Positions 21,317-47,629 of a DNA stretch of 64,000 nt are shown here, in pieces. Made by a program: the position numbers and the translations under genes. Within the stretch, counting starts at the first letter, position 1. Each line of letters opens with the position of its first letter. Under the pieces are notes generated by a model. The model saw only the letters and a list, made by a program, of their open reading frames with translations, was not told where the DNA came from and made no database searches. The DNA is from an uncultured Ruminiclostridium sp. (GTDB lineage: Bacteria; Bacillota; Clostridia; Oscillospirales; Ruminococcaceae), in assembly GCA_947624435.1 (NCBI GenBank), contig CANQKE010000006.1, positions 1-64,000 of the forward strand, in the 5' to 3' direction.

Positions 21317-22006
21317 TTATTCGGGTCTGCTTATCGCTGCTATATCGTTCATGCTGTCTATTTTCATAAGATAATCGACCTTTTTGGTTTCGCCGTTTTG
21401 CTCCGAAACGCCTATCTGCTCCATAGAGGTGCAGTAGCCCGCGCTGTCCAGCGTATAGATAACGGTAAATTCTTTCAGCGTGCTGTCAGCGCCGAGCTGA
21501 GCGGAAAGCATGTCGCTGAGTTCCTCCGGGCGGTAGACGTGCGTTATCACGGTATCGCTGCCGTTTTGCGTTACGCTGCCGCTTTCTATGCTTTCCGGCT
21601 TAATGAATATCATACCGGCGTCGGTCATAGAAAACCGCGCTATTCGATTATAGGTGCGGTAATTCGGTTCGCCCTCTTTTATTGTTATCCATTCGCCGTT
21701 TTCGTCGGTGTAGCTGTAATCGTAGCCGTCGTGAAATTCCCTGTATACCGTCTTGCCGTCGGTGCCGTAATAGCTGTATTGCAGCCTGTCCACATCGTTA
21801 TATAAAAACGTCAGCTCCTGGGTGACTAGATCGTTTTCCACGTCGGTTATCGTAAGATGCGCCGCATAAAGCCCGGTGTAAAGCTCTCTGGCTTTCATTA
21901 TTCGGTCGTACCCGTCTATATTTGAATAATCAGCCGAGCAGCCGCACAAAAACACCGCCGCCGAAAATACAATCGCCGTTAGCTTTTTGATCATTTTTAT
22001 TATCAT
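21317..22006 (-). CDS. Lipoprotein, unknown function
   Basis: The 229-residue protein has a lipoprotein signal peptide with lipobox FLCGC, followed by an extracellular domain like the LolA/outer-membrane-lipoprotein-sorting fold in layout: AAHLTITDVENDLVTQELTFLYNDVDRLQYSYYGTDG and strands with paired Tyr. Fold assignment is tentative. I start it at the ATG at 22004-22006; a second ATG four codons later is possible. A longer frame upstream reads into the structured repeat (22000-22118) and is rejected as coding. The ribosome site GGAG at 22024-22027 is 17 bases from the ATG with a small stem between. Confidence 0.75.
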   Translation of the reverse strand: MIIKMIKKLTAIVFSAAVFLCGCSADYSNIDGYDRIMKARELYTGLYAAHLTITDVENDLVTQELTFLYNDVDRLQYSYYGTDGKTVYREFHDGYDYSYTDENGEWITIKEGEPNYRTYNRIARFSMTDAGMIFIKPESIESGSVTQNGSDTVITHVYRPEELSDMLSAQLGADSTLKEFTVIYTLDSAGYCTSMEQIGVSEQNGETKKVDYLMKIDSMNDIAAISRPE

Positions 22007-22118
22007 GCTTGCAAAGAAGCTTTCTCCTTTCAGGTTTTGTAGGTTTTGCGAAGCAAAATTGCTGACCGTACTCAGCAAAGTGCAAAACTCACAGTCTGAA
22101 AAATTTATTTTTCAGACT
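22000..22118 (-). repeat. Structured intergenic repeat, copy 1
   Basis: Minus-strand copy of the three-member element. It has the AGTCTGAAAAA / TTTTTCAGACT hairpin, P1 (22080-22088 with 22034-22042, six to seven pairs), P2 (TTGCTGA with TCAGCAA, seven pairs), P3 (TTTTGC-TTC-GCAAAA) and a GAAAGGAGA segment. It forms the leader of the lipoprotein gene downstream of ptsH. Confidence 0.8.
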
Positions 22119-38253: not shown

Positions 38254-38928
38254 ATGTTTCATATAATGGTGGCAGAGGACGATACCAATACAAGAAAGCT
38301 TATGTGTACTGTGCTAAGTCAGAACGGGTACGAGCCTGTTCCGGCGGTGGACGGTCTGGACGCTTTGGAGGTAATGGACCGGCAGCATATAGACCTTATC
38401 CTGCTGGACGTTATGATGCCGCGCATGGACGGTTATGAATTTGTCCGTACTTTAAGAGAGGGCGGCTGCAATATACCGGTGCTTATGGTAACGGCCAAGG
38501 AGACCTCTACAGATAAGATACAGGGCTTCAAGGCGGGCACGGACGATTATATGGTAAAGCCGGTGGATGATGAGGAAATGCTGCTTAGGATAGCGGCGCT
38601 GCTTAGACGCAGCAACATCGCAAATTCCCACAAGCTGACCGCGGGCGATACCGTGTTGGATTACGACGCGCTTACGGTAAGCTGCGGAGGGAACGTACAG
38701 GAATTGCCGAACAAGGAGTTTATGCTGCTGTTCAAGCTGTTAAGCTATCAGAATAAGATATTCACCCGCCGCCAGCTTATGGACGAATTATGGGATATGG
38801 AATCCGAAACGGACGAGCGGACGATAGACGTACATATAAACCGGCTGCGCGAGCGGTTCCGCGACAATAACGATTTTGAGATAGTTACCGTGCGCGGTCT
38901 TGGATATAAAGCAGTTATAAAAGTCTGA
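38254..38928 (+). CDS. OmpR-family response regulator
   Basis: The 224-residue protein has a receiver domain (1-115) with the acidic pair D9/D10, phosphorylation site D52 (LILLDVMMPRMDG), T80 and K102, and a winged-helix output domain (about 125-224: MDELWDMESETDERTIDVH, RGLGYKAV). It should control the kinase and ABC genes that follow. AAAGGAG precedes the ATG. The first stem of the structured repeat overlaps its stop codon. Confidence 0.95.
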   Translation: MFHIMVAEDDTNTRKLMCTVLSQNGYEPVPAVDGLDALEVMDRQHIDLILLDVMMPRMDGYEFVRTLREGGCNIPVLMVTAKETSTDKIQGFKAGTDDYMVKPVDDEEMLLRIAALLRRSNIANSHKLTAGDTVLDYDALTVSCGGNVQELPNKEFMLLFKLLSYQNKIFTRRQLMDELWDMESETDERTIDVHINRLRERFRDNNDFEIVTVRGLGYKAVIKV

Positions 38929-39044
38929 AAACAAATTTTTCAGACTTTGCGTTTTGCGCTTTGCCGAATACGGTCAGCAATTTTGCTTCGCAAAACCGCG
39001 CAAAACTTGAAAGGAGAGATGCATGCTTTGCAAAGCATGGTCAT
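38921..39044 (+). repeat. Structured intergenic repeat, copy 2
   Basis: Contains the AAGTCTGAAAA hairpin (38921-38931 with 38937-38947), P1 (GTTTTGCGC 38951-38959 with GCGCAAAAC 38998-39006), P2 (38961-38967 with 38974-38980, one mismatch), P3 (TTTTGC 38981-38986 with GCAAAA 38990-38995) and GAAAGGAGA. An 11-codon frame (39020-39055) starts after that ribosome site and ends in TGA overlapping the kinase ATG. Confidence 0.85.
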
Positions 39045-39050
39045 AAAAAA

Positions 39051-40163
39051 ATGAGCAAGGGCAACTACATTCGCAGATACGGCTCTATCAACGCACATGT
39101 CGTGCTGTACGTCTTTTTCATAATGGTGACCGCGAATGCGCTGTGCATGATACTGTTCAATATCCTTTACGCCGCGGGAGTGGTAATGGGTACCGCGCCG
39201 ATGCTGCTGCTGCTTATAACGCTCAGCGTCAGCACGATAATCGGCAGCGCGCTGACTTATGTATTTTCCGGCGTGGTATTAAGACCGCTGCTGCAATTGT
39301 CGGCGGCTATGCAGAAAGTGGCGAAAGGGGATTTTACCGTAAAGATAGGAGAGCTTAGCTCAATGTATGAGATAAGGCTGCTCCAGGAAAATTTCAATAT
39401 AATGACCAGAGAGCTCGGCGGCACGGAAATGTTCCGCAACGATTTTATAAACGGCTTTTCCCACGAGTTCAAGACCCCGATGGTGTCGGTTTACGGCTTT
39501 GCAAAGCAGCTTAAAAAGGGTGGACTTACCCCGCAGCAGCAGGAGGAGTATATAGACATCATTTTAAGCGAGTCGCAGCGGCTTATCAATATGTCCGGCA
39601 ATATCCTGACGCTCAATAAGCTGGAAAATCAGGAGATAGTTTCGGATAAGACGGTGTTCAGATTGGACGAGGAGATACGCCGCAGCATACTTTTGCTTGA
39701 ACAGCAGTGGAGCAGGAAGAACATCACCGTGATACCGGAGCTTGACGAGCTGGAGTTTTACGGCAGCGCCGAAATGTTAAGGCAGGTATGGCTGAACGTT
39801 ATCGGCAACGCCATAAAATACACCGATGAAAACGGCGAGATAAAGATAACTCTTAACCGCAGCCGCTCGGACGAAAACGAGGTCGTCGTTGCGGTATGCG
39901 ACAACGGCATAGGCATGGATAAAAATACCGCGGAGAGGATATTTGAAAAGTTCTACCGCGGAGATACCTCCCGAACTTCCAGCGGGAACGGGTTAGGTCT
40001 GCCGATGGTAAAGAGGATAGTGGAGCTATGCAAGGGTACTATAAGAGTGACAAGCGAGCCGGGAAAGGGTACGGAGTTTTACATTTATCTGCCCGATGAA
40101 AGATTTGCCGAGGAGGAACGTCCGACCAGGCGCAAACGCGGCGCGGATCGCGTAACGGCATAA
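39051..40163 (+). CDS. Sensor histidine kinase
   Basis: The 370-residue kinase has two membrane helices (about 17-44 and 54-78) with a very short outside loop, then HAMP (about 78-130), HisKA with the phospho-acceptor in GFSHEFKTP (about H138) and HATPase_c (NVIGNAIKYTDENG, DNGIGMDKNTAERIFEKFYRG-type box, GNGLGLPMVKRIVE). The tiny sensor loop is typical of intramembrane-sensing kinases paired with ABC exporters that respond to envelope-active peptides. The start at 39051 is set by ATGA overlap with the upstream mini-frame; a longer TTG-started frame reads through the structured repeat. Confidence 0.93.
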   Translation: MSKGNYIRRYGSINAHVVLYVFFIMVTANALCMILFNILYAAGVVMGTAPMLLLLITLSVSTIIGSALTYVFSGVVLRPLLQLSAAMQKVAKGDFTVKIGELSSMYEIRLLQENFNIMTRELGGTEMFRNDFINGFSHEFKTPMVSVYGFAKQLKKGGLTPQQQEEYIDIILSESQRLINMSGNILTLNKLENQEIVSDKTVFRLDEEIRRSILLLEQQWSRKNITVIPELDELEFYGSAEMLRQVWLNVIGNAIKYTDENGEIKITLNRSRSDENEVVVAVCDNGIGMDKNTAERIFEKFYRGDTSRTSSGNGLGLPMVKRIVELCKGTIRVTSEPGKGTEFYIYLPDERFAEEERPTRRKRGADRVTA

Positions 40164-47491: not shown

Positions 47492-47617
47492 AAGTCTGAA
47501 AAATAGATCTTTCAGACTGTAAGTTTTGTTCTTTGATGAGTACGGTCATCAATTTTGCTTCGCAAAAACGAACAAAACTTGAAAGTAGAAATGCTTACTT
47601 TGCAAATATGTTCATAA
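47492..47617 (+). repeat. Structured intergenic repeat, copy 3
   Basis: Hairpin AGTCTGAAA (47493-47501 with 47510-47518), P1 GTTTTGTTC (47523-47531) with GAACAAAAC (47570-47578), P2 TTGATGA (47533-47539) with TCATCAA (47546-47552), and P3 TTTTGC/GCAAAA (47553-47558 with 47562-47567). The GAAAGGAGA of the other copies is GAAAGTAGA here, and no plus-strand gene follows. Confidence 0.85.
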
Positions 47618-47629
47618 AACCGAATACAA

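Follow-up and report, generated by a model that had tools for sequence, protein, structure and literature searches.

A miniature structured element at gene starts of a Ruminiclostridium genome, probably derived from an IS110-family lineage that targets the gap from Shine-Dalgarno sequence to start codon

What is the folded sequence of ∼127 nt that separates a response-regulator gene from a sensor-kinase gene in an uncultured Ruminiclostridium: a regulatory RNA that has been copied from gene to gene, or a piece of DNA that moves? The sequence lies, with two further copies, in a stretch of 64,000 nt which we call the window, and which is contig C6 of the genome designated G000. The element itself contains no transposase gene and has no room for one. 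The copies and parts on which our argument depends are as follows.

38922–39048, + strand: copy 2 of the element (model match, 134 bits), between the response-regulator gene (38254–38928) and the sensor-kinase gene (from 39051).
38922–38946, + strand: H1, the left-terminal hairpin AGTCTGAAAA...TTTTTCAGACT of copy 2, which starts with the end sequence common to IS110 elements (AA-GTCTGAAA).
38951–39006, + strand: three-way junction of copy 2, with P1 (38951–38959/38998–39006) around P2 and P3; covariation.
38961–38967/38974–38980, + strand: P2 of copy 2, inside P1; covariation.
38981–38986/38990–38995, + strand: P3 of copy 2, inside P1; covariation.
39009–39016, + strand: element-borne Shine-Dalgarno (SD) sequence GAAAGGAG of copy 2, the core of which is retained across copies.
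39022–39039, + strand: H4 hairpin of copy 2, in the interval from SD to start codon; some subfamilies are without it.
39039–39050, + strand: right end GGTCATAAAAAA of copy 2, abutting the start codon at 39051 (cf. GGTCATAA-NN-ATG, the right end in IS110 elements).
39051–40163, + strand: histidine kinase gene abutted by copy 2 (HATPase_c, HisKA and HAMP by Pfam).
21995–22118, − strand: copy 1 (model match), with its SD at 22024–22031 and the gene start at 21994; present in the relative G031 too, where H1 has decayed.
21317–21994, − strand: gene started by copy 1, ∼225 aa, with a lipoprotein-like N-terminus by eye and no Pfam match.
47493–47619, + strand: copy 3 (model match), not at a gene start, with a mutated SD (GAAAGTAG, 47581–47588); absent at this site in G031.

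The initial annotation had described three intergenic copies. All three are present, but the word intergenic understates their position, since copies 1 and 2 each run up to a start codon and copy 3 alone does not. The helices had been read correctly: P1 is GTTTTGCGC/GCGCAAAAC in copy 2 and GTTTTGTTC/GAACAAAAC in copy 3, while P2 is TTGCTGA/TCAGCAA in copy 1 and TTGATGA/TCATCAA in copy 3, and carries one C-A mismatch in copy 2 (TTGCCGA/TCAGCAA). Of the layout that had been proposed, a hairpin followed by a three-way junction, the individual hairpins occur in all copies, but minimum-free-energy folding of single RNA sequences returns the full junction for copy 3 only. Copies 1 and 2, folded singly as RNA, prefer partly different folds; copy 2 folded as DNA comes close to the three-way junction. 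The fold may act as RNA or as folded DNA. We conclude that the element is not a product of chance, because the P3 core is matched three times in the window against 0.07 times in shuffled sequence, and because the structure is supported by covariation. No bridge RNA is recognisable inside the window's element.

In order to find further copies, we used a covariance model (R1) built from an alignment (A4) of 41 copies. Far from being a three-copy element, the sequence has 49 model matches in G000, arrays of three or four included, and we regard it as a mobile element instead of a three-copy regulatory RNA. The 49 matches fall in 42 places, which we count as 41 because an array at one contig end (C36) and a copy at another (C16) appear to be a single site, judging by the orthologue in G031. 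A tandem array of truncated units with a period of ∼91 stands at these contig ends (C36:1–332 and C16:47857–47962), before what looks by eye like a nucleotidyltransferase gene; that G031 has a single copy here points to local expansion and a broken assembly.

Across the 41 copies of A4, 94.3% of cells pair, and double changes are seen at 16 of the 40 pairs, compared with 6.4 (sd 1.4) in shuffled alignments and 1–4 in slid controls. Divergent subfamilies contribute 32 of the 42 copies in a second alignment (A6); fitted to the model, and so favouring the fold, this alignment shows double changes at 34 of the 40 pairs and in 371 cells, whereas shuffles give 111 such cells and slid controls no more than 65. 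In H1, P1, P2, P3 and H4 alike, the letters change while the pairing is kept, P3 varying least. The covariance-model check that had been suggested at the outset, run on the genome and its relatives, has yielded both many further copies and covariation, in the 41 copies and in the 42 divergent ones, and the claim of selection on a fold stands on 16 double-change pairs within the first set and 34 across subfamilies. H4 is absent from the copies of three genomes (G007, G080 and G017), which keep the SD, the spacer and the ATG. One fixed position of P1 (A4 columns 43/86) is non-standard in 30 of the 41 copies, mostly C-A, and is perhaps a functional bulge. That the element belongs to no named RNA family is upheld against Rfam 15: there are no matches at gathering score within the window, and none on the element at five loci with E values up to 5, so a known Rfam RNA was discarded as a candidate.

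The position of the element in G000 is highly regular. At 35 of the 41 places its right end meets the start codon of an open reading frame in the same orientation (the shortest of these frames has ∼56 codons, and some stay open to the end of the available sequence); as a chance level, 6.4% of intergenic positions and strands in the window lie within 16 nt upstream of a start. The six places that are not gene starts are copy 3, L018, L025, L028, L062/C36 and L064. We listed 46 downstream proteins from G000 and its relatives and scanned 40 of them in Pfam, leaving out six. Pfam matches were obtained for 31 of the 40, almost every one to a family of its own. They include seryl- and tyrosyl-tRNA synthetases, a MurG-type glycosyltransferase, ThiI, aspartate decarboxylase, threonine synthase, guanylate kinase, dehydroquinase and histidine kinase, and no transposase was found among the 31. 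Such unrelated families do not make up the coherent set of controlled genes by which a riboswitch would be recognised. One copy (L059) starts a gene for a HicA-type toxin (PF07927).

An SD core is present within the element in all 35 gene-start copies, compared with one of the six others (L018; Fisher p ∼8e-6). Degenerate orthologues in G031 show the same preference: those before murG, at the copy 2 site, before a DUF1540 gene (L057) and before an rsmD-like gene (by eye) retain the SD while other parts decay, whereas the SD is gone at L025, which is not a gene site. H4 and the start codon are 10 nt apart in 39 of the 47 copies measured. Of the 31 gene-start copies tested on the other flank (four of the 35 were left out), 21 have an SD-like motif in the 16 nt that precede the element, compared with 40 of 155 control stretches; the remaining 10 of these 31 copies have no SD-like motif left just upstream of H1. 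Ribosomes would, on this evidence, use the element-borne SD. Three other translational features were considered and rejected: a small leader frame, ATGCTTGCTTTGCAAGCATGGTCATAA, the ATG of which is too near the SD or missing in several copies; the ATG after the hairpin as the true start, which is mutated in many copies; and complementarity to the 16S tail outside the SD itself, which is not consistent.

Does the element move? The genome G031, which is 94–96% identical to G000 at four loci, carries 22 copies of its own. When 31 sites were compared between the two, 16 were empty in G031 and 15 were shared, degenerate or remnant; with 16 of 31 sites empty in a genome that is ∼95% identical, we conclude that it does. 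The clearest empty sites are that of the seryl-tRNA synthetase gene (TATAGGAGATAAAAA-ATG), that of L061, which reads TTTTAGGTGATAAATATG where the filled ends read AGGTGATAAGTCTT and AGTGATAAATATG, and that of L020 (GGAGAATAATAATG). The site of copy 2 is empty in G030, G009 and G018 and degenerate in G031. In relatives the response-regulator and sensor-kinase genes overlap at ATGA; copy 2 splits this pair, and the response regulator upstream is now a few residues shorter, with a stop codon supplied by H1. At L006, L008 and L022 the SD of the empty allele is missing from the filled one, so that insertion, or later change, is not always clean, and at these three loci, as at L024 and L030, the junction bases differ from the empty allele. 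We looked for a fixed target-site duplication and saw none beyond the dinucleotide, with a longer repeat at L061.

Model matches (R1) occur in 21 of the 71 genomes of the genus. In five of these 21 (G092, G016, G079, G001 and G008) the matches are weak, resemble another GC-rich palindromic family and do not lie at start codons, and we left them out of A6. Searching the order with a broader model (R2) gave matches in 16 of 295 genomes, and in 13 of 148 sampled genera, this genus included. Of 19 order-level loci displayed in register (L331 and L335, out of register, being left out), 11 were judged by eye to run up to a start codon, and several of the remainder form arrays or are located elsewhere. 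Exact matches to the right end AAAGGAATGGTCATAANNATG number 47 and come from 18 of the 295 genomes; the reversed pattern has none in the 295. The form of the element found in G000 had no match in plasmids, in phage records or in one pattern search of viral contigs. Elements of the window's miniature family, which we term type A, do stand in two viral contigs, directly before genes that resemble phage structural genes by eye (L345, 8136–8259; L354, 1307–1435), and this position indicates that the elements also ride on phages or prophages.

A probable origin of the element was suggested by its right end. Among 30 of the 47 AAAGGAATGGTCATAANNATG sites that we displayed, several have no three-way junction before the right end but another repeat instead. 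At L368, in G131, this other repeat forms the non-coding end of a transposon of the IS110 family that is oriented away from the gene; a Pfam scan of L368 identifies DEDD_Tnp_IS110 (PF01548, 4e-23) and Transposase_20 (PF02371, 3.7e-19). At L377, in G193, a truncated IS110 lies between TTTAAGGAGATAA and the right end before an ATG. Recruiting other IS110 elements as relatives of L368, we assembled a set of 19, comprising 18 from distinct viral contigs and a host copy, L416. Their gene-side end is readable in 14 of the 19 (L447 has no clear end, that of L454 is lost, and those of L450, L453 and L455 lie beyond the available sequence), and each of those 14 ends leads directly into an ATG. Ten of these ATGs open a reading frame of 30 codons or more; the other four are the short frames of L439 (7 codons), L442 (∼20) and L452 (10), and that of L441, where the contig ends.

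The left end, read in eight IS110 elements, has the same dinucleotide as the right, with an SD-like motif just before it, although for L444, L445 and L451 the search itself required the dinucleotide and the motif; no convincing left end was found in L443, and none in L446. In five elements (L416, L436, L437, L438 and L439) the two ends bear the same dinucleotide, and the flanks are an SD-like motif on one side and an ATG on the other. The IS110 ends read AA-GTTTGAAA or AA-GTCTGAAAC on the left and GAAAGGAATGGTYAT-AA on the right, with TA or TT as variants. The same terminal sequences, AA-GTYTGAAA on the left and GAAAGGAATGGTYATAA on the right, are found in L416, L436, L437 and L438 and in the type A elements L345 and L354. 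Type A and IS110 elements have 17 bases in common at the right end (in L345 and L354) and 8–9 at the left; H4 splits the right end in the window's subfamily, so that the unbroken run of 17 comes from L345 and L354 instead. Beyond these terminal bases the IS110 elements do not resemble the miniature element. The insertion target is nevertheless alike in both, namely SD-element-ATG, with exceptions. The initial annotation had named a match to a known transposable-element end as grounds against its reading of an RNA (or hairpin DNA) fold; the ends of the element do match those of IS110-family transposons. A tblastn search of 721,678 bases of G000 (∼31%) found no relative of the L368 transposase.

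IS110 elements of the kind described as IS621 use a bridge RNA, and the non-coding ends of the present set contain candidate guides. A stretch containing GAGG, for example GGAGGTGAGT, is followed after ∼30–50 nt by a 7-mer that is complementary to core+NN+ATG. In a set of 12 elements, among which several cores and NN pairs occur, 83 of the 84 7-mer positions pair with this target when G:U is allowed. At variable positions 48 of 48 pair, compared with a mean of 26.7 when sites are permuted, and 48 was reached in 0 of 200,000 permutations (run without L446, a near copy of L444, and without L456); this significance is overstated, because the guides, although at similar places, were placed by hand with the match in view, three of them by eye, and because matches of 7 in 7 occur elsewhere in the same stretch for L436, L443, L444 and L446. 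A 6-mer complementary to the core and to the element's own left end is present in the non-coding stretch of all five complete elements tested. The putative SD-like left guide is the weakest component of the predicted guide model. Where this guide lies, an uninterrupted identity with the native left flank is seen in L437 (8 bases), L438 (6) and L416 (5), and in neither L436 nor L439. Set against their own flanks, and again placed with the match in view, the predicted right target and right donor guides fit, and the left target guide fits partly. The strand logic of the guides is that reported for IS621 (PMC11208160).

Our favoured reading of these results is that the window's element is a non-autonomous miniature which derives from an RNA-guided lineage of the IS110 family and inserts between SD and start codon, and we consider this probable. 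At the level of sequence, the many copies, their presence or absence between relatives, the fixed start-codon position and orientation, the retention of the SD, the covariation and the IS110 elements with matching ends are all established. Much of this would suit a cis-regulatory RNA as well, like a riboswitch or leader, copied before many genes because it regulates them: covariation across subfamilies is strong, the position before the start codon is strict, the orientation is single and the SD is retained. We nevertheless think a regulatory RNA unlikely, given that the downstream genes are unrelated (the 31 of 40 with Pfam matches being nearly all of different families), that 16 of 31 sites are empty in a genome ∼95% identical, that copy 3 and five other places lie away from gene starts and some copies form tandem arrays, and that the ends match a transposon.

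It might also be supposed that the miniature is moved by an unrelated transposase, whether a REP-associated Y1 enzyme or a reverse transcriptase, and that the likeness to IS110 ends reflects a shared target or convergence. Terminal hairpins and small size are reminiscent of REP and IS200-type elements, the 31% of G000 that was examined yielded no relative of the IS110 gene, and the reverse-transcriptase domain RVT_1 is present in other element-bearing genomes (G017, G090, G002, G070 and G091). Against this, the sole Y1 match (PF01797) in G000 is a canonical-looking IS200 with different end hairpins, and G031, rich in the element with its 22 copies, has no Y1 at all, so we rejected a Y1/IS200 partner. 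A reverse-transcriptase partner was likewise set aside: RVT_1 has no match in the five closest element-bearing genomes (G000, G031, G030, G018 and G009), though present in some others. Together with the 17 right-end and 8–9 left-end bases held in common with IS110, these results leave us sceptical of an unrelated enzyme, which we rate as improbable. An ordinary terminator or assembly repeat without special meaning might account for the copies at some contig ends and in tandem arrays; it is very hard to reconcile with the start-codon position, the covariation, the clean empty sites in another assembly and the copies in other genomes and in viral contigs, and we give it almost no weight.

If the element is indeed an IS110 derivative, an IS110 recombinase and its bridge RNA would move the miniature copies in trans. 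The target loop of the bridge RNA would then act as a generic detector of gene starts, with an SD-like left guide (e.g. GGAGGTGA) and a right guide complementary to core+NN+ATG. The SD at the gene-side end could keep the interrupted gene translated, H4 being bridged between SD and AUG, and the folded leader upstream of the SD might have a separate role, such as sparing the new ribosome-binding site from pairing with upstream sequence. We lean, with less assurance, towards a more general form of this idea: that the IS110 guide RNA is a universal gene-start finder, combining a guide that repeats the SD with an anticodon-like guide for the start codon, such that pairing by itself would suffice to place insertions in the SD-to-ATG gap of almost any gene, with a spare SD provided, and that miniatures with a three-way-junction leader have spread this RNA-guided safe-harbour strategy across the order and its phages.

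Several known systems share features with the element. Among bacterial MITEs and small interspersed repeats, the BOX and RUP elements of pneumococcus and the Correia elements are, like it, short, structured, present in many copies and without a gene of their own; the fixed orientation, the start-codon position and the replacement SD set the present element apart, and we know of no such start-codon or SD rule for BOX, RUP or Correia. REP and REPIN elements, which are associated with Y1 (RAYT) transposases, are likewise short repeats ending in hairpins, but here there is no matching Y1 partner and the position is different. In phage T4 gene 38 a hairpin lies between SD and AUG, and there, too, the hairpin would bridge a long distance from SD to AUG; in the present case SD and hairpin belong to a mobile element.

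The nearest systems appear to be IS621/IS110 with its bridge RNA (PMC11208160) and the seekRNA elements (PMC11187229). The partner transposons described here are like them in their domains (PF01548 and PF02371, scanned in L368), in their long non-coding end and in having the same dinucleotide on both sides, and the two predicted guide pairs follow the strand logic given for IS621 (PMC11208160). The target here is neither a REP sequence nor one fixed site but a general layout, SD-spacer-core-NN-ATG; in addition, the gene-side end here supplies an SD, and the window's element has neither a transposase nor a recognisable bridge RNA. A word search of PMC11208160 does not find 'start codon', and in PMC11187229 'start codon' and 'ribosome binding site' occur once each. 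Among the literature matches listed, which are titles and beginnings of abstracts and mostly do not cover subscription journals and preprints, none describes elements between SD and ATG.

Should our reading be correct, base pairing to the translation-start signal itself would be a means of transposon targeting, insertion would be paid for by a new ribosome-binding site that the element supplies, and it would become clear how a single guide can lead RNA-guided transposons to a great number of safe sites. Transposons would then have made some of the 5' leaders of these gut bacteria, which could serve as a natural test set for the effects of SD spacing and hairpins on initiation; a structured element family outside Rfam 15 would also be defined.

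Two neighbouring repeat families were noticed in the course of this analysis. The genus contains a second GC-rich palindromic repeat family with a similar core of hairpin and three-way junction (e.g. TTTGCGGACT..AGTCCGCAATTTTGCTTCGCAAAACC), seen at L036, L037, L038, L043, L046, L297, L304, L309, L310, L312 and L315; it does not lie at start codons, and at some loci it adjoins a tRNA gene. The other is a leader that we term type B (GCTGCGTTAGAGGCAC..GGTGCCTTGGAGCGCAGCGG), which has no transposase in view and shares the right end AAAGGAATGGTCATAANNATG (L349, L356, L367, L378, L379, L384 and others). It is probably derived from an IS110 end, and in G048 it stands at several contig starts.
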